A DNA stretch of 64,000 nucleotides from Frateuria soli (GTDB taxonomy: Bacteria > Pseudomonadota > Gammaproteobacteria > Xanthomonadales > Rhodanobacteraceae). The DNA lies in the NCBI RefSeq assembly GCF_021117385.1, contig NZ_CP088252.1:434001-498000 (forward strand). Reading direction: 5' to 3'. The number at the start of each line of letters is the position of its first letter. The first letter of the stretch is position 1. The notes beneath the pieces were generated by a model that had not been told where the DNA came from, made no database searches, and saw only the letters and a program-made list of their open reading frames with translations. This document shows positions 16,143-25,505 of the stretch, piece after piece. Position numbers and translations under genes: made by a program.

Positions 16143-16481
16143 ATGCAGGAAATCCACGCCCGCGTCTATGCCGCCATCGCCGCCATCCCGCGCGGCCGCG
16201 TCGCCAGCTATGGGGTGATCGCCGCCCGCGCCGGGTTGCCGGGACGCGCGCGGCTGGTCGGGAAGCTGCTGGGCGAGACACCGGATGGCATGAACCTGCC
16301 CTGGTACCGCGTGCTGCGCGCCAGCGGCCAGGTCGCGCTGCCGCCGGGTAGCCGCGGCTTCCGCGAGCAGTGCCGCCTGCTGCGTGCCGAGGGCGTCGAG
16401 GTGGTCAACGGCCGCGTGCCGCTGTCGCGCTTCGGGCTGGATGCCGACCTGGACCGCGCGCTCTGGGGCATGTCCTCGTAG
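16143..16481 (+). CDS. Alkyltransferase-like (ATL) DNA repair protein
   Basis: The 112-residue product is an MGMT-family DNA-binding domain without the N-terminal domain. MGMT has the acceptor Cys in PCHRV; here the motif is PWYRV, with Trp in place of Cys. It therefore cannot transfer alkyl groups. Known ATL proteins with this Cys-to-Trp change bind O6-alkylguanine and hand it to nucleotide excision repair. The helix-turn-helix region with GRVASYGVIAARAGLPGRAR is intact. Confidence 0.9.
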   Translation: MQEIHARVYAAIAAIPRGRVASYGVIAARAGLPGRARLVGKLLGETPDGMNLPWYRVLRASGQVALPPGSRGFREQCRLLRAEGVEVVNGRVPLSRFGLDADLDRALWGMSS

Positions 16482-16554: not shown

Positions 16555-16615
16555 GGTTTTTGCCTACCGCTTGCGCCGTCCGGCGCCGACGGCTGCGGAT
16601 CGCCGCTTTGGTAGC

Positions 16616-18439
<1,824 letters not shown>

Positions 18440-18818: not shown

Positions 18819-19142
18819 CTACCACGCCTGGCAGGCCACGCCGGGCGCCGAGGCCACCGTTTCGCCGGGCCGCAGCGGCGCCAGCCAGGCGTCGTGCATG
18901 CCCTTGGTCCACCACTGCCAGCCCTCGCCCAGATAGCGCGCCCCGCTGGCCGAGATGGCGACCGTGAGCCGGTAGGGCCTGCCGTCGATCAGCAGGCGGG
19001 CATGGTCGCTGTCCCCGTAGGTGGCCTGTACCGTACGGCCGTCGGTGCACCGGTAAAGGACGGCTTCGGCCCTGGGTCGGACCGGCTGGCAGGCGGTCGG
19101 CGACAGGCAGGCCAGGGCCAGCAGAAGGCGGGAAGGGCTCAT
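18819..19142 (-). CDS. MliC-like membrane-bound lysozyme inhibitor
   Basis: The 107-residue exported protein matches the MliC/PliC fold. After a signal region come YRCTDGRTVQATYGDSDHAR, the core SASGARYLGEGWQWWTKG and the end PGVACQAW. MliC proteins block C-type lysozyme with a Ser/Tyr loop in this SGxRY segment. Cys12 and Cys18 are candidate lipidation sites, but neither lipobox is canonical, so it may be periplasmic rather than lipid-anchored. A GGGAG precedes the ATG. It is divergent from the FHA gene with 105 bases between. Confidence 0.75.
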   Translation of the reverse strand: MSPSRLLLALACLSPTACQPVRPRAEAVLYRCTDGRTVQATYGDSDHARLLIDGRPYRLTVAISASGARYLGEGWQWWTKGMHDAWLAPLRPGETVASAPGVACQAW

Positions 19143-19214
19143 CGGTTTCTCCCTTGCTTTGACGGGCAAGGCCGGGACGAGGGCGTCCCCATGCCTTGAT
19201 GACGGACGCTTGGT

Positions 19215-19220
19215 TATAGT
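19215..19220 (+). promoter_or_regulatory. Candidate -10 box of the FHA-kinase operon
   Basis: TATAGT lies 27 bases before the FHA start codon, within the 105-base divergent spacer. No convincing -35 is seen at 16-18 bases, so an activator may be needed. Confidence 0.3.
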
Positions 19221-19247
19221 GCGCGGATATCCCACCGAGGCATATCG

Positions 19248-19772
19248 ATGGACAGCCCTGGACAGACTCCCGTTCTTTCCCGCTCCAAGCGATCGTCCGG
19301 ACCGCAGGGAACCCGGCTGTTCTCCGCCGAGGAACTGCGCCAGGTCGCTCGCGAAGCCGCCCCCGTCCTGCTCGGCCGCGCCAGTGCCGCAGCCCCGGTG
19401 CTGGAGGGCGCCAACGGCGGGCTCCAGGGCCAGCGGATCTCGCTGCGCCCGGGGCGGCAGACGATCGGCCGGCGCGGCGACAACGACATCGTGCTGGACG
19501 ATCTGAGCGTGTCGGCTTCGCACGCGTGGATCATGAACCAGCAGAACCACTACGTGATCATGAACACGCTGTCGACCAACGGCACGTTCGTCAACGGCAA
19601 GCGCGTCCACGAGGCCACGTTGCGCCACGGGGACCGCGTCCGTTTCGGGCAGCTGGAGTTCACCTTCCTCACCCGCGAACGCGGTACCGGGGCTGCGGTC
19701 CGGCACGGGTGGCTGGCGCTCGGCGCGGCGGCGCTGGTGGCAATGGGAGTGGCGGCATGGTGGCTGGTCTGA
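19248..19772 (+). CDS. Membrane-anchored FHA-domain protein
   Basis: The 174-residue product carries one forkhead-associated domain (about residues 60-142), which binds phosphothreonine. The key residues are visible: IGRR at 73-76, SxxxSH ending at His92, and NGTFVNG at 111-117. A single C-terminal membrane segment (about 154-174) places the FHA domain in the cytoplasm at the inner membrane. The N-terminal 58 residues contain Ser/Thr that a kinase could modify. The gene overlaps the start of the kinase gene by 16 bases, so the two are translated together and the FHA protein is a likely kinase partner or substrate. Confidence 0.88.
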   Translation: MDSPGQTPVLSRSKRSSGPQGTRLFSAEELRQVAREAAPVLLGRASAAAPVLEGANGGLQGQRISLRPGRQTIGRRGDNDIVLDDLSVSASHAWIMNQQNHYVIMNTLSTNGTFVNGKRVHEATLRHGDRVRFGQLEFTFLTRERGTGAAVRHGWLALGAAALVAMGVAAWWLV

Positions 19773-21487
19773 CCCCAGCGGCGGAGGAGCGCGCGATCCC
19801 GCCGACGGTGGGACGCTACCGCATCGAAGGCGTGCTCGGCGCAGGCGCCATGGCGGTGGTCTACGCCGGCTTCGACCCGGACATCGAGCGCCAGGTCGCG
19901 ATCAAGTGCCTGCGCAATGCGGTGGCGGCCGATCCGGCCTATCGGGCGCGCTTTCTCACCGAGGCGCGCGCGGTCGGCCACCTGACCCATCCACACATCG
20001 TCACCCTGTTCGACGTGGGCGAGATGGACGATGGCCGCCCCTACATCGCGATGGAACGCCTTTCCGGCGACACCCTCGCCAGCCGTGTGGCGCGCGAGGG
20101 CTTTCCGCCGCTGCCGGTGATCCTCGGGCTGGTCGAGCAGATTGCCGGCGCGCTCGATTACGCGCATGTGCAAGGGGTGATCCACCAGGACATCAAGCCG
20201 GAGAACATCATGCTCTCCGACGGCTGGCAGCACGCCAAGGTGAGCGACTTCGGCATCGCCGAGCGGCGCGACCCCAACAGTACCGGCGCGCCCCGCCGCG
20301 AGGTCGGTGGTACGCCCGCCTTCATGGCGCCCGAGCACCTGCAGGGCGAACGCACCGATGCGCGCAGCGACCTGTTCTCGCTGGGCGTGGTGCTGTTCTG
20401 GCTGCTGAGCGGCAAGCTGCCGTGGGAGGAAACCGGCGACGTCCGGCGCCTGCTGGCCGAGCGCCAGCGCCTGCAGCAGCCCACGCTGCAGCCGCGCGAC
20501 CCGTTCACTCCCTCGATCCTGATCGACATCGTGCAGACCCTGCTCGCGCCCGCGCCGCAGGACCGCTACCAGCGCGGCGCCGAGCTGATCGACGACCTGC
20601 GCCTGGCCCTGCGCGAATACGAGCGCCTGCACGAGAAGCCGATCGCCACGCGGCTGATCTCGCTGCGCCTGCGTTGGGCGGGCATTCTGGCCTCGGTGCT
20701 GAGCCTGACCCTGCTGATCGGCCTGGCCGCGATCTACGCCCGCCAGAACGCGGCGGTCACCGGCCTGGCGCAGGATTTCGGGCGTTCGCTCGGCCGGATG
20801 GTCGCCAGCGAGGCGGCCGAGAACCTGCTGCTGGACGACCGCGCCGCCACGCGCGCGCTGGTGCAGGACATCGCCCGCAACAAGCAGATCTATTACCTGG
20901 CGGTGGCCAATCGCTACGGCGAAGTGATCGCCAGCACCCGCGACGACGAGCTGGGCAAGCCCCTGCCGGCGCGCACCAACGAAACGTTCCTGCCGGGCGC
21001 GGGCGACATCGCCAGCTACCGCGTGCGCCTGCCCGACGGCGACGATTCGGGCGAGATGCTGGTGTTCGACGTGCCGGTCAACTACCAGGTCGCCAAGGTC
21101 GGCCAGTTGCGCCTCGGGATCAGCGACGCCCCGCTGCGCGCCGCACAGAAGACCACGCTGAAGGCCATCGTCGCGGTGTTGCTGGTCACCCTGGCGGCGG
21201 TGACGGGCGCGGCCTACTGGTTGTTCCGTCGCCTGCTCGGCTTGCTCGACGTGCTCGGCGAGGCGATGCTGAGGGTCGGTCGCGGCGACTTCGGGCACCG
21301 CATCCGGCTGGTGCGCCACGACGAACTGGGCCGCCTGTTCACCGCCTTCAACCTGATGTGCAACGCCTTGCAGGCACGCGAACGGCGCCCGCGCCGGCCC
21401 AGCGCAAAAGCGACGTCGCCGCTGGAGTTGCCCACCCGCATCCTGCCTGCGGCGGAGCGGGTGGAGGACAGGGTGACGCGGGATTAG
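19757..21487 (+). CDS. Receptor-type Ser/Thr protein kinase with periplasmic sensor and C-terminal HAMP
   Basis: The 576-residue product begins with a Hanks-type kinase domain (about 18-290). It has the Gly loop LGAGAMAVVY (27-36), Lys50, HQDIKPEN with catalytic Asp145, DFG (164-166) and APE (191-193). The residue before the catalytic Asp is Gln, not Arg, so it is a non-RD kinase. A membrane segment (307-327), a periplasmic region of about 140 residues (328-466), a second membrane segment (467-490) and a HAMP domain (488-545) follow. The periplasmic part resembles the small sensor domains of chemoreceptors and histidine kinases. A kinase placed before the sensor and HAMP, with almost nothing after HAMP, is unusual. 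The start is set by overlap with the FHA gene. Confidence 0.9.
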   Translation: MVAGLTPAAEERAIPPTVGRYRIEGVLGAGAMAVVYAGFDPDIERQVAIKCLRNAVAADPAYRARFLTEARAVGHLTHPHIVTLFDVGEMDDGRPYIAMERLSGDTLASRVAREGFPPLPVILGLVEQIAGALDYAHVQGVIHQDIKPENIMLSDGWQHAKVSDFGIAERRDPNSTGAPRREVGGTPAFMAPEHLQGERTDARSDLFSLGVVLFWLLSGKLPWEETGDVRRLLAERQRLQQPTLQPRDPFTPSILIDIVQTLLAPAPQDRYQRGAELIDDLRLALREYERLHEKPIATRLISLRLRWAGILASVLSLTLLIGLAAIYARQNAAVTGLAQDFGRSLGRMVASEAAENLLLDDRAATRALVQDIARNKQIYYLAVANRYGEVIASTRDDELGKPLPARTNETFLPGAGDIASYRVRLPDGDDSGEMLVFDVPVNYQVAKVGQLRLGISDAPLRAAQKTTLKAIVAVLLVTLAAVTGAAYWLFRRLLGLLDVLGEAMLRVGRGDFGHRIRLVRHDELGRLFTAFNLMCNALQARERRPRRPSAKATSPLELPTRILPAAERVEDRVTRD

Positions 21488-21594
21488 CGGGCATTTGACA
21501 AGTCAGGTCCGGGAATGGCCGGGCCCGATCGGGTTGAAGGCCTCAAGGCCCGACGTGTCCGAACCCCGGGTGCGCGGGTCCCCGGCGGCCTTCC

Positions 21595-22527
21595 TCAGTA
21601 TTGTTTCAGCCGCTGCTTGAGCTCCAGCGCCCGCGCGCGATAGACCGTCGCCGGCTCGAAATCCGGTTCGATCGCCAGCACGCGGTTCCACAGCGAGATC
21701 GCCTGGTCCAGTTGCTGGTCGCGGTAGAGCACGATCGCACGCTGGTGGTAGACCGACACCAGTTGCTTGCGCAGCGACCTGGCGTCCGCGTCGGAAGGCG
21801 GCAGCTGGGGGTCGACGTCCAGCGCCTGGTCCATCCGTTCCAGCGCCTCGCTGCGCTGTCCCTTGTGCAGCAGCGCGAGGCTTTCGTCCTGCAGGCGGCG
21901 CGCCTTGGCCGCACCCGCGCCGCTGGCGGAAGGCTCCGTCGCGGCGGCGGTCTGCACCGGACCCTCCGGTTGCGTTCCGCTGGCCAGTCGCGAGGCGGGC
22001 ACGCGCAGCGTCTGGCCCACACGCAGCATCGAGGGATTGGTCGAGCCGTTGTAGCGTGCCAGGATCAGGAAGCGCCCGCCGTCACCGAGGAAGCGGGCGG
22101 CCAACGTGCTGTAGGAATCGCCCGGTCGCACCACGTACGGGCGCGAGGCATGGCCCAGCGCTTGCTCCGGGTCGACCGTCAGCTGGCGCAGCACCGCCTC
22201 GGCGGCATGGTCGTCGGGGTAGACCTCCAGGTAGCGGCGCAGTTGGCGCTCGCCCTCGGCAAAGTGGCCCGACTGCAACTGGCCGTTGATGATCGACGAC
22301 AGCGGACGCGGCGCCGTGTCCTCCGGGGCGCGCGTCGGCGCCGGCGTGGGCGCCGGCGTCACCGTGACCGTCGGCTTGCGATGGCCGGTCACGCGGGCCT
22401 TCAGCTGCTGCAACTGGGCGCAGCCGCCCAGGCCGACGGCGAGCAGCCCGACCAGTACCAGTGGCCCCACCCGGGAGCCTTGCGCGGCAAAGCGCGCGTC
22501 TTGCGAGTTCTGCACCGAAATCCTCAT
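21595..22527 (-). CDS. LysM and TPR-like lipoprotein
   Basis: The 310-residue lipoprotein has a canonical lipobox LGGC with lipidated Cys36. A Thr/Pro/Ala linker and a short helical repeat pair (80-125) come next. One LysM domain (about 130-178, YVVRPGDSYSTLAARFLG to GQTLRVP) is expected to bind peptidoglycan. A C-terminal TPR-like region (about 215-310) may contact a protein partner. Its ATG overlaps the stop of the PP2C gene by four bases (ATGA), so a periplasmic wall-binding protein is made together with a cytoplasmic phosphatase. It ends convergent to the kinase gene. Confidence 0.88.
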   Translation of the reverse strand: MRISVQNSQDARFAAQGSRVGPLVLVGLLAVGLGGCAQLQQLKARVTGHRKPTVTVTPAPTPAPTRAPEDTAPRPLSSIINGQLQSGHFAEGERQLRRYLEVYPDDHAAEAVLRQLTVDPEQALGHASRPYVVRPGDSYSTLAARFLGDGGRFLILARYNGSTNPSMLRVGQTLRVPASRLASGTQPEGPVQTAAATEPSASGAGAAKARRLQDESLALLHKGQRSEALERMDQALDVDPQLPPSDADARSLRKQLVSVYHQRAIVLYRDQQLDQAISLWNRVLAIEPDFEPATVYRARALELKQRLKQY

Positions 22528-23372
22528 ACCTGTCCGATACCCATGTCGCCCGCCATGCGGCGGTGGGCGAGTCGCTTCCACAGCCGGCGGCCATGGGCGC
22601 GCAACCAGTGGGTCCAGCCTATCCGGGCGAAGATCAAGGAGACATTGTCGCCATCCACGCCCCCCCGCTCTATCGCCCGGGACAGCGCTTCCTTGAGGGC
22701 GTGGCGCAGGTTGCCGCGACGGGCAAGCCGGCCCAGTTCCTCGGTCGAGAGCCGCTCCCACACGCCGTCGCTGCACAGCACGAAGGCCTGGCCGGGACGC
22801 AGCGTGGTAAAGCCGTGCTCGACCTGTGGCGGCTGCGGCCCGCCCAGGCCGCGCAGCAGCATGTGCTGGTCGACGTCCTCGCCCATCGCCTCGGCCGCGA
22901 GCTCCCCGCGGGCCACTTTCAGTTGCGCCACGCTGTGGTCCTCGGTGCGGCCCAGGCAACGTCCGCGCTGGAACCGGTAAAGCCGGCTGTCGCCGACGTG
23001 CGCCCAGCAGGCGCGCCGCCCACGAACCAGCAGCGCGACCACCGTCGAGTGGGGTTCGGCGCCGACCAGGCCGTCGCCGCGCTGGCGCAACTCGGCGTGG
23101 GCGGACTGGCACAGCGTCTCCAGGAACAGCGGGCCGGGCTGCTCGCGCCACAGGCCCTGCTGCCAAAGGCGGCGGGTCACCTCGATGACGCCGGCGGATG
23201 CCAGCTCGCCCGCGCCGTCGCCGCCCATGCCGTCGGCCAGGACCAGCAGTCGCGCGTCGGTGGCCGGGTCGTGCAGGCAGATGCAGGCATCCTGCTGGGT
23301 GGCACGTCCGCCGCGCGCACGGCCCGCCGCTACCGCCGGCATTGCCTGGGCTTCCTCGATCCCCTGATCCAT
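22524..23372 (-). CDS. PP2C-family Ser/Thr protein phosphatase
   Basis: The 282-residue product is a metal-dependent PPM/PP2C phosphatase, cytoplasmic and without TM. The metal-binding motifs are present: RATQQDA (Asp28), LADGMGGDGAGE (Asp47), SRLYR after HVGD, LCSDGVWE and GDNVSLIF at the C-terminus. It probably reverses the phosphorylation made by the kinase encoded 2 kb away on the other strand. The start is the ATG at 23372. It is the first gene of a two-gene unit with the LysM lipoprotein, 155 bases downstream of holC on the same strand. Confidence 0.92.
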   Translation of the reverse strand: MDQGIEEAQAMPAVAAGRARGGRATQQDACICLHDPATDARLLVLADGMGGDGAGELASAGVIEVTRRLWQQGLWREQPGPLFLETLCQSAHAELRQRGDGLVGAEPHSTVVALLVRGRRACWAHVGDSRLYRFQRGRCLGRTEDHSVAQLKVARGELAAEAMGEDVDQHMLLRGLGGPQPPQVEHGFTTLRPGQAFVLCSDGVWERLSTEELGRLARRGNLRHALKEALSRAIERGGVDGDNVSLIFARIGWTHWLRAHGRRLWKRLAHRRMAGDMGIGQV

Positions 23373-23527: not shown

Positions 23528-23950
23528 CTACATGTCGAACTTGGCCAGTTCGAAGCCGCGTTGCTGGTACTCGCGCCAGCGTTCGCGCGAGCCGGTGCGC
23601 TCGGCCCGGTCGGCGGCGACCACTTCCAGAACGCGTTCGAACCGTCCTTCGGGACAGGTCTCGCGCAGGTTGATCAGCAGCGGGCGGTCGGCGGTGTCGA
23701 TGCCGGGCGGCACGATCAGCACCGCGGTGTGCGCGTCGTCCTCGTCGCCGGCGAGTTGGTGCGGGATAAAGGCATCGCTGTCGAAGTCCCACAGCAGTTC
23801 GTCGATCGCCTCGGCCTGCTCGAAGTCGCGGGTGAGGATCAGCGTCGGCTGCTGCGCGGCATAGGCACGCCGCGCCAGCTCGCACACCAGCAGCAGCGGC
23901 TGTTCGCGGAAGCGCGGCTTGTCGATCAGGTAGAAGTCGGCGCGGGGCAT
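23528..23950 (-). CDS. holC: DNA polymerase III chi subunit
   Basis: HolC is the chi subunit of the clamp-loader complex and links it to SSB. The 140-residue product has the typical start RADFYLIDKPRF, the central LWDFDSDAFIPHQLAG and LINLRETCPEG. The gene follows pepA by 61 bases on the same strand, the usual arrangement in gammaproteobacteria. Confidence 0.94.
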   Translation of the reverse strand: MPRADFYLIDKPRFREQPLLLVCELARRAYAAQQPTLILTRDFEQAEAIDELLWDFDSDAFIPHQLAGDEDDAHTAVLIVPPGIDTADRPLLINLRETCPEGRFERVLEVVAADRAERTGSRERWREYQQRGFELAKFDM

Positions 23951-24011: not shown

Positions 24012-25505
24012 TCAGCCGGCGCGATCGATCAGCCACTGCGCCAGCAGCGGCACCGGTCGGCCGGTGGCCAGGCCCTTGCGGCCCTCGTCCCAGGCGGTAC
24101 CGGCGATGTCCAGGTGCGCCCAGCGCTGGCCTTCGGTGAAGCGCGAGAGGAAGCAGGCGGCAGTGATCGCACCGGCGCTCTTGCCGCCGATGTTGGCCAC
24201 GTCGGCGAAACCGGATTCCAGCTGCACCTGATAGTCGTCCCACAGCGGCAGGCGCCAGGCGCGATCGAGTGTGTCCTCGCCGGCGCCGAGCAGTTCGGCG
24301 GCCAGGTCGTCGTGCTTGCTCATCAGGCCGGTGGCGTGCTTGCCCAGCGCCACGACGCAGGCGCCGGTGAGCGTGGCCGCGTCGACGATCGCCTTGGGCT
24401 GGTAGGTCTGCGCGGTCCAGGTCAGCGCGTCGCACAGGATCAGGCGGCCCTCGGCGTCGGTATTGAGCACCTCGATGGTCAGGCCCGACAGGCTGGTGAG
24501 CACGTCGCTGGGGCGGTAGCTGTCGCCGTCGGGCATGTTCTCGGCCGAGGGCACGACGCATACCAGGTTGAGCTTGAGCTTCATCTTCACCGCGGCGACG
24601 AACGCGCCGAGCACGCCCGCCGCGCCGCCCATGTCGAACTTCATCTCTTCCATGCCGGCACCGGGCTTGAGGCTCAGGCCGCCCGAATCGAAGGTGATGC
24701 CCTTGCCGACGAGGGCGTAGGGCTTGTCGCCCTCGGCGCCACCCTTGTATTCCAGTGCGACCAGGCGCGGCTTGTTGGTCGAGCCGCGGCCGACCGCCAG
24801 CAGCGAACCGAAGCCGAGCTTGTCCATCTCCACGTGGTCGAGCACGCGGCAGCTGACGCCCTCGCTGGCTTCGGCGAAGGCCTGTGCGCGGGCCGCGATG
24901 TAGGCGGGGTTGCAGATGTTCGGCGGCAGGTTGGCCAGCTCGCGCGCGAAACGCACGCCCTCGGCGATCGCAGACGCCCGGTCCAGGCCCGGTTTCGCCT
25001 CGTCGCCGGCGGCGAAGGCGACCGACTTCAGCTCCGGTTGCGCGCTCTTCTCGCGCGGCTTGAAGGTGGCGGTGTAGCGGTAGGCCGCATGGTCGGCGGC
25101 AAGCGCCGCGGTGCGCACGCGCCAGGCGGCGTCACGGCCAGGGACGTCCACCTCCGTCAGGAACGACACCGCCGACTCCACCGGCAGCTTGCCCAGCGCG
25201 CGCGCGGCTTCCAGGCTGACTTTCTGGAAGCGCGCCGCGTCGAAGCCCTTCTGCGCGCCCAGGCCCACCACCAGCACGCGGCGGGCCGCGACGCCGGCCG
25301 GCGCGAACAGCACGCAGACGCTGCCGGCCTTGCCGTTGACGTCGCCGCTCTCGACCTGGCGCTTGATCGCGCCCTCGGCGGCGCCGTCCACACGGGCGGC
25401 CGCGCTGGTCAGCAGGCCGTTCTCGTAGACGCCCACCACCAGGCAGGGCGTATCGACGGTTTCGGGAGAGGTACTGGCGGCGACCAGACTGAACTGAAGC
25501 GTCAT
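24012..25505 (-). CDS. pepA: Cytosol (leucyl) aminopeptidase, M17 family
   Basis: PepA is a two-metal hexameric aminopeptidase; in enterobacteria it also binds DNA at Xer sites. The product is 497 residues. The metal and active-site signature is intact: GKGITFDSGGLSLKP with GMEEMKFDM, and the family motif NTDAEGRLILCDAL. An AGGA precedes the ATG. The gene is divergent from lptF, separated by 103 bases, and followed by holC. Confidence 0.96.
   Translation of the reverse strand: MTLQFSLVAASTSPETVDTPCLVVGVYENGLLTSAAARVDGAAEGAIKRQVESGDVNGKAGSVCVLFAPAGVAARRVLVVGLGAQKGFDAARFQKVSLEAARALGKLPVESAVSFLTEVDVPGRDAAWRVRTAALAADHAAYRYTATFKPREKSAQPELKSVAFAAGDEAKPGLDRASAIAEGVRFARELANLPPNICNPAYIAARAQAFAEASEGVSCRVLDHVEMDKLGFGSLLAVGRGSTNKPRLVALEYKGGAEGDKPYALVGKGITFDSGGLSLKPGAGMEEMKFDMGGAAGVLGAFVAAVKMKLKLNLVCVVPSAENMPDGDSYRPSDVLTSLSGLTIEVLNTDAEGRLILCDALTWTAQTYQPKAIVDAATLTGACVVALGKHATGLMSKHDDLAAELLGAGEDTLDRAWRLPLWDDYQVQLESGFADVANIGGKSAGAITAACFLSRFTEGQRWAHLDIAGTAWDEGRKGLATGRPVPLLAQWLIDRAG

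Follow-up and report, generated by a model that had tools for sequence, protein, structure and literature searches.

An FHA protein, a Cache-HAMP Ser/Thr kinase, a LysM lipoprotein and a PP2C phosphatase form a candidate GarA-like phospho-switch in Frateuria soli

Gene layout and conservation of the cluster

The window analyzed here is a 64,000-nucleotide stretch of the Frateuria soli genome (assembly GCF_021117385.1, NZ_CP088252.1, positions 434,001-498,000; gene coordinates are window-relative), and it holds two convergent gene pairs devoted to Ser/Thr phospho-signaling. An FHA gene and a transmembrane Ser/Thr kinase gene overlap by 16 bp, the kinase ATG at 19757 lying inside the FHA gene, and 107 bp separate this pair from a second one in which a PP2C phosphatase gene and a LysM/TPR lipoprotein gene share an ATGA overlap (Table 1). 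An earlier note on this DNA had described both overlapping pairs, with which the coordinates and Pfam domains found here agree, as well as a lysozyme-inhibitor-like gene divergent from the FHA gene, whose MliC domain is genuine. The FHA, protein kinase, HAMP, LysM, TPR, PP2C and MliC domains all score over their Pfam cut-offs.

Among 151 genomes of the order, full-length kinase orthologues (matches reaching at least residue 538 of 576) occur in 25, ten from the window's family and 15 from a second family; the other matches listed cover the kinase domain or little more. All 25 genomes also hold the LysM protein and the GPQGT-type FHA protein, the latter called at E <= 3.5e-47 with the next match at 1.6e-30. 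The LysM protein is found in 26 genomes, namely these 25 and G119, and the FHA protein in 28, namely the same 25 together with G020, G094 and G119. Co-occurrence of the kinase with the LysM protein and with the FHA protein gives Fisher p values of ~1e-27 and ~1e-25, respectively, uncorrected for shared ancestry.

Physical linkage follows the same pattern. The FHA gene lies immediately upstream of the kinase gene in 19/25 genomes (10/10 in the window's family, 9/15 in the second), and the LysM gene is immediately convergent to it in 20/25 (10/10 and 10/15); in two of the five remaining genomes LysM adjacency is not judgeable because the contigs (L136, L137) stop beside the kinase. Thus the clustering of these genes in relatives, on which the earlier note had made its reading depend, is conserved. 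Relatives carrying the FHA-kinase pair and the LysM gene include Rhodanobacter (L054, L055) and Dyella (L057). Wherever a partner gene is not adjacent to the kinase, it is found elsewhere in the same genome, and in the six genomes with an unlinked FHA gene (L170-L175) that gene stands directly behind a PP2C gene, as it also does in G119 and G020 (L181, L183). With PP2C adjoining LysM in 7/10 same-family genomes, the rearranged layouts yield four pairings: FHA with kinase, kinase with LysM, LysM with PP2C, and PP2C with FHA. Within the family, distances of the LysM protein correlate with those of the kinase at r 0.84 (15 loci), more closely than those of the FHA protein do. That the kinase, the FHA protein and the LysM lipoprotein form one conserved unit, with PP2C attached more loosely as the least fixed part of the module, is well supported by these observations.

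A simpler account would treat the kinase-FHA and LysM-PP2C pairs as neighbors by descent only, lacking any joint function, and both the relatedness of the sampled genomes and the variable adjacency of PP2C are in keeping with it. Against this account, the partners re-pair and still co-occur when unlinked, and MliC, recQ, holC and pepA flank the module in just 2/32 loci (4-20 kb each), both from the window's genus, so that simple descent of the whole region is no explanation. We consider it very unlikely, and chance neighborhood is rejected by the co-occurrence and re-pairing of the partners.

Across the class, a full-length kinase (profile covered to at least position 471) was found in 14 of 321 genomes and a match to the LysM-protein profile in 16, which include 13 of the 14 kinase genomes. 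Once the matches in G250 and G465 are set aside, the LysM protein is present in 11/14 kinase genomes vs 3/307 others (p ~2e-15). The FHA protein occurs in six of the 14 kinase genomes (G000, G307, G417, G371, G435, G295), and the convergent quartet seen in the window recurs at L215, L216 and L225, from two other families of the class. The class-wide counts suggest kinase plus LysM as the wider core, to which a subset of genomes adds the FHA switch.

In another family, a class III cyclase-FHA fusion adjoins the kinase-LysM pair (L227:9055-10014 and L228:9389-10342, both on the minus strand), which suggests that cyclic-nucleotide output there replaces the GPQGT FHA switch.

Table 1. Features of the module, its flanks and the separate type VI secretion region of the same genome.
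Feature	Position	Strand	Evidence
FHA protein, 174 residues: N-terminal GPQGT motif, FHA domain, C-terminal transmembrane anchor	19248..19772	+	PF00498 69.7 bits
GPQGTRLF motif, candidate phospho-switch (Thr22)	19299..19322	+	invariant in alignment; GarA Thr22 profile alignment
FHA domain, intact pThr-binding residues (GR, SxxH, NG)	19461..19649	+	invariant residues
C-terminal transmembrane helix of FHA protein	19713..19769	+	hydropathy; structure model
Ser/Thr kinase, 576 residues: kinase, transmembrane helix, Cache, transmembrane helix, HAMP, tail	19757..21487	+	Pfam, alignment, hydropathy
Hanks-type kinase domain, HQD replacing HRD	19817..20569	+	PF00069 156.2 bits
Periplasmic single-Cache-like sensor domain	20738..21154	+	sCache_3_2 27.1 bits; fold match WalK/CitA
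HAMP domain	21218..21373	+	PF00672 37.5 bits
Codon of Thr560, kinase tail (T-R-I-L); candidate phosphosite for FHA docking	21434..21436	+	alignment
LysM/TPR lipoprotein, 310 residues	21595..22527	-	LysM 33.2 bits, TPR_2 40.2 bits; lipobox Cys
LysM domain of lipoprotein	21997..22137	-	PF01476 33.2 bits
PP2C-type Ser/Thr phosphatase, 282 residues	22524..23372	-	PF13672 45.7 bits; alignment
MliC-type lysozyme-inhibitor gene; neighbor, not a conserved module part	18819..19142	-	PF09864 53.9 bits (cut-off 22)
Flanking recQ	16571-18439		
Flanking holC	23528-23950		
Flanking pepA	24012-25505		
T6SS_FHA_C protein of the genome's own type VI system	C1:1029882-1031204		178.2 bits
Kinases of the genome's own type VI region	C1:1040409, C1:1043339		

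Sensor, tail and switch motifs of the encoded proteins

The kinase alignment comprises 31 rows from 33 matches, a second, different kinase in L048 and a truncated one in L059 being left out. K50, H143, D145, D164 F165 G166, G185 T186 and E193 are invariant, and we take these residues to be the catalytic Lys, HxD, DFG and GT..PE elements of Hanks-type Ser/Thr kinases. The HxD motif reads HHD in 13 and HQD in two of the 15 same-family kinases and HRD in the other 16; with the Arg of HRD replaced, the kinase of the window's family is of the non-RD kind, which amounts to a shift to a non-RD kinase inside a single module. Non-RD kinases are usually not gated by activation-loop phosphorylation. Two transmembrane helices (by hydropathy) and a HAMP domain are present in 31/31 homologues. 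The fold search reveals a Cache/PAS-like fold between the two helices, near WalK and CitA, which fit about equally, and also near DcuS/DctB; sCache_3_2 is matched by 24/31 homologues at E<=0.001, with scores of 31.9 bits in L215 and 28.3 in L225. The earlier note had seen in the locus a writer, a reader, an eraser and a likely wall sensor. The gene identities stand, but the LysM lipoprotein can no longer be regarded as the lone candidate sensor, for the kinase bears a WalK/CitA-like sensor of its own.

The same finding bears on the reading that the earlier note had drawn from the locus, namely that the locus deals with peptidoglycan or lysozyme stress, the LysM lipoprotein acting as sensor and MliC taking part in the response. 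The LysM/TPR lipoprotein does accompany the kinase across genomes and the divergent gene does encode an MliC domain, which would suit such a role. Nonetheless, the two loci of one genus noted above are the only ones of the 32 where MliC adjoins the module, so that it is not conserved with it, and the kinase has a Cache-like sensor of its own. We judge this reading unlikely.

Beyond the HAMP domain the kinase tail is weakly conserved (27-29% mean identity), a single Thr excepted. This Thr, residue 560 of the window kinase, is found in 28/31 kinases, always with a hydrophobic residue (I, L, M, V or F) at +3 (28/28); for comparison, among 90 further Thr within the final 75 residues, 18 have one of these residues at +3. 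By eye, a hydrophobic-+3 tail site is present in the FHA-partnered kinases L215, L216, L217, L219 and L225 and missing in L218, L224, L226 and L227, all of which lack an FHA partner, with L228 ambiguous. The spacing of Thr and +3 residue equals that of the FHA-protein motif, so both segments could be ligands of one FHA pocket.

In the FHA alignment (26 rows from 28 matches, upstream copies without GPQGT in L035 and L055 left out), GPQGT and F25 are invariant in 26/26 rows, and the back-translated pattern of the motif has a single match in the whole genome. G74, R75, S89, H92, N111 and G112 are likewise invariant and correspond to the GR, SxxH and NG motifs, whose roles in FHA domains are given in a passage of PMC1262709. 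Hydropathy places a C-terminal transmembrane segment in 24/26 homologues (L054 and L058 fall below threshold), and the structure model shows a helix at residues 150-173. Profile comparison aligns Thr22 with the phosphorylated Thr22 of GarA, and the GarA 17-mer scores best against the N-terminal profile exactly at this position. The fold search scarcely covered the N-terminal GPQGT segment, which is not evidence of its absence from related folds.

At L137:1094-2204, two tandem FHA genes, both with GPQGT, lie upstream of the kinase. A second C-terminally anchored FHA protein is encoded far from the module in the own genome (G000:C1:1218366-1219130), and an FHA gene lies immediately upstream of the module in L035 (7467-8234) and L055 (7569-8333), the L035 copy being 65% identical to that protein. 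Proteins of this type occur in 82/151 genomes of the order (E<=1e-10), and each of the 25 sampled genomes of the window's family has one, with or without the module; the type is thus not module-specific, and it was rejected as a fifth part.

The LysM/TPR protein carries a lipobox Cys in 26/26 homologues, followed at +2 by A, Q, T or S and never by D. Under the Lol sorting rule, a +2 residue other than Asp points to the outer membrane; hence the lipoprotein is probably anchored there, where its LysM domain may bind peptidoglycan. In PP2C, D28, D47, D202 and D242 are invariant in 13 aligned sequences and presumably bind metal. A metagenome-assembled contig (L056:7747-9534, minus strand) has PP2C and the LysM/TPR lipoprotein in a single open frame, possibly a natural fusion or a stop missing by chance.

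A proposed trans-envelope switch and its alternatives

From the gene identities, conserved clustering and co-occurrence, domain layout, two conserved Thr motifs and fold matches established here, we infer all phosphorylations, the LysM-Cache contact, peptidoglycan binding, the signal and the output of the following scheme. The module would be a four-part, trans-envelope, GarA-like Ser/Thr phospho-switch facing the envelope, a proposal for which we hold the scales to be evenly balanced. Briefly, the LysM/TPR lipoprotein would bind peptidoglycan and relay its state to the Cache domain of the inner-membrane kinase, whose activity Cache and HAMP would set. The kinase would then autophosphorylate its own tail at Thr560 within the T-x-x-hydrophobic site, and the pThr560 tail would dock the membrane-anchored FHA protein. 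Once docked, the kinase would phosphorylate Thr22 of the FHA protein in GPQGTxxF, and pThr22 would fold back into the FHA pocket of the same protein, a self-interaction like those of GarA/OdhI and DgcB, and would thereby change which partner the protein binds. Finally, PP2C would reset the phosphorylated sites. Recurrence in distant bacteria suggests that the four proteins jointly report on the cell envelope.

Several points weigh against this proposal. At the level of distribution, the Fisher values take no account of shared ancestry, and a dedicated kinase search of the FHA-holding genomes G020, G094 and G119 returned no full-length kinase (the G094 FHA copy is broken off at the motif by a contig end). 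In the class, the kinase genome G182 (86% complete) has no LysM match, its full-length kinase containing an internal stop; the LysM-profile matches of G250 and G465 span the TPR half only and are >20 kb away from the kinase, that of G250 being in a protein without any Pfam match; conversely, G233, G287 and G356 hold the LysM protein and the kinase search gave none full-length. In eight of the 14 class kinase genomes no FHA protein is matched at E<=1e-25; kinase plus LysM thus does not require it. Kinase and FHA distances within the family correlate only moderately (r 0.53), and the second-family PP2C is just 27-29% identical to that of the window, so it may have a separate origin. At the level of the proteins, the window's sCache_3_2 score falls slightly below the Pfam cut-off of 28.4 bits, and L054 has Arg at the tail site. 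The GPQGT segment is modeled with low confidence, FHA residues 12-65 alone match no PDB chain, and 1297 of 20000 shuffled peptides score no lower than the GarA 17-mer.

What the sensor perceives could also be a small molecule. The Cache domain would bind a soluble carboxylate or amino acid, the FHA protein would control a metabolic enzyme like GarA/OdhI, and LysM would merely position the complex. The fold places the sensor near the citrate sensor CitA and DcuS/DctB, and the FHA protein is closest to GarA and OdhI, described in PMC12321487 as regulators of 2-oxoglutarate dehydrogenase. However, WalK fits the sensor as well as CitA does, the FHA protein is membrane-anchored and GarA is not, and class-wide the LysM partner is steadier than the FHA protein (11-13/14 vs 6/14 kinase genomes). 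We regard small-molecule sensing as doubtful, yet the most plausible of the alternatives; with WalK and CitA fitting about equally, the signal may be either wall state or a soluble ligand.

The three activities of the module are those of PpkA/PppA/Fha, which raises the idea of a displaced set for post-translational control of a type VI secretion system (T6SS). A review of Xanthomonadales T6SS, in the portion bearing on this point, places tagF-pppA-ppkA-fha inside T6SS clusters (PMC6653060). In agreement with the earlier note, which had remarked on the absence of such genes around the module, there is no T6SS gene among the flanking genes identified between 14.5 and 27.8 kb. The lone T6SS sheath gene found in the genome, VipA, lies at C1:1013158, >500 kb from the module, in a T6SS region (C1:1013158-1044007, about C1:1.01-1.04 Mb) that has its own T6SS_FHA_C protein, two kinases and a PP2C (L138). 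Moreover, the window FHA protein has no PF20232 (T6SS_FHA_C) match and scores 45.7 bits vs a cut-off of 120.25 for TIGR03354 (TagH). One distant family supplies the nearest support for the idea: at L218:1934-10129, the same kinase type has a T6SS FHA protein (T6SS_FHA_C) and a PP2C as neighbors and LysM farther off, and this locus is a natural bridge from the kinase-FHA-PP2C-LysM module to T6SS control. For the window, a T6SS role is highly improbable and was rejected, given the lack of nearby T6SS genes and the separate phospho-set elsewhere.

Beyond the immediate flanks lie a PHO4-type phosphate transporter gene, a DNA methyltransferase-like gene and two LptF/LptG genes. A short protein encoded at 16143-16481 (+) has an O6-methylguanine methyltransferase DNA-binding domain (77.3 bits) and scores under the NCBIfam ogt cut-off (34.6 vs 46.4); it has Trp at what we take to be the acceptor-Cys position (PWYRV), like alkyltransferase-like proteins.

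Comparison with known systems

Both by profile and by fold, GarA and OdhI are the best PDB matches of the window FHA protein. All are small proteins with an N-terminal T-x-x-F segment ahead of a single FHA domain, and the FHA cores superpose at 1.3 Å over 98 residues. GarA and OdhI, actinobacterial FHA switches that PknB/PknG phosphorylate, are soluble and lack a membrane anchor. The window protein, in contrast, has a C-terminal anchor, an adjacent Cache-HAMP kinase gene and a gammaproteobacterial host; instead of ETTS it has GPQGT with a single Thr, sharing the Thr and the +3 Phe, and it reaches 57.6 bits against the 200-bit cut-off of the NCBIfam OdhI equivalog NF041660. A 2025 paper calls GarA unique to Actinobacteria (PMC12321487).

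The module resembles the PknB/PstP/FHA PASTA systems in that a transmembrane Hanks kinase is combined with a PP2C and an FHA protein. PASTA kinases carry their cell-wall-binding element outside the cell. The window kinase shows no PASTA match at E<=0.01 and scores 237.8 vs 450 bits for NF033483 (PASTA kinase); it differs in its Cache-like plus HAMP sensor, and the candidate wall binder is a separate LysM lipoprotein. An old observation in M. tuberculosis is that FHA genes cluster with those for Ser/Thr kinases and phosphatases (PMC1262709). A functional precedent may be seen in the GlnH-GlnX-PknG-OdhI/GarA relay, where the kinase that acts on the FHA switch is proposed to be under the control of a lipoprotein and a membrane protein (PMC8546545). 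Common to both would be an outside lipoprotein, a membrane protein, a kinase and an FHA switch; in the window, however, a single protein combines sensor and kinase, and the lipoprotein belongs to the LysM/TPR rather than the solute-binding type.

The histidine kinases WalK, CitA and DcuS share the Cache-like sensor between two transmembrane helices followed by HAMP, whereas the output of the window protein is a Ser/Thr kinase placed N-terminal of the sensor. In a census on 2012 data, two Ser/Thr kinases are counted among 2499 sCache_3_2 proteins (PMC4822843, Table 1). Bdellovibrio DgcB (FHA-GGDEF), whose FHA domain is described in a section of PMC6733907 as binding its own N-terminal Thr segment with a hydrophobic +3 residue, likewise has such a segment ahead of FHA; its diguanylate cyclase output domain has no counterpart in the window FHA protein. 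The T6SS set PpkA/PppA/TagH shares the kinase, PP2C and FHA trio and differs in its T6SS neighborhood and T6SS_FHA_C domain.

Among the matches listed from the open-access PMC literature, no description of this module or motif was found. Kinase/FHA/PP2C sets are known in kind. For Gram-negative Hanks-type kinases, the sensed signal and the trans-envelope route are largely open questions, and the module is a compact system amenable to point mutation throughout, with its sensor, a putative wall-binding lipoprotein, two predicted phosphosites and a single eraser. Somewhat more tentatively than the scheme itself, we suggest that a GarA/OdhI-type switch may exist in Gammaproteobacteria, membrane-anchored, with its own WalK-like-sensor kinase and coupled to LysM; such a switch would parallel, in Gram-negative bacteria, the PASTA-kinase/GarA axis, but with wall binding assigned to an outer lipoprotein and sensing to an inner-membrane kinase. 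Should the Thr of GPQGT act as predicted, the GarA/OdhI principle would reach further than has been assumed and would have become coupled to the cell envelope.

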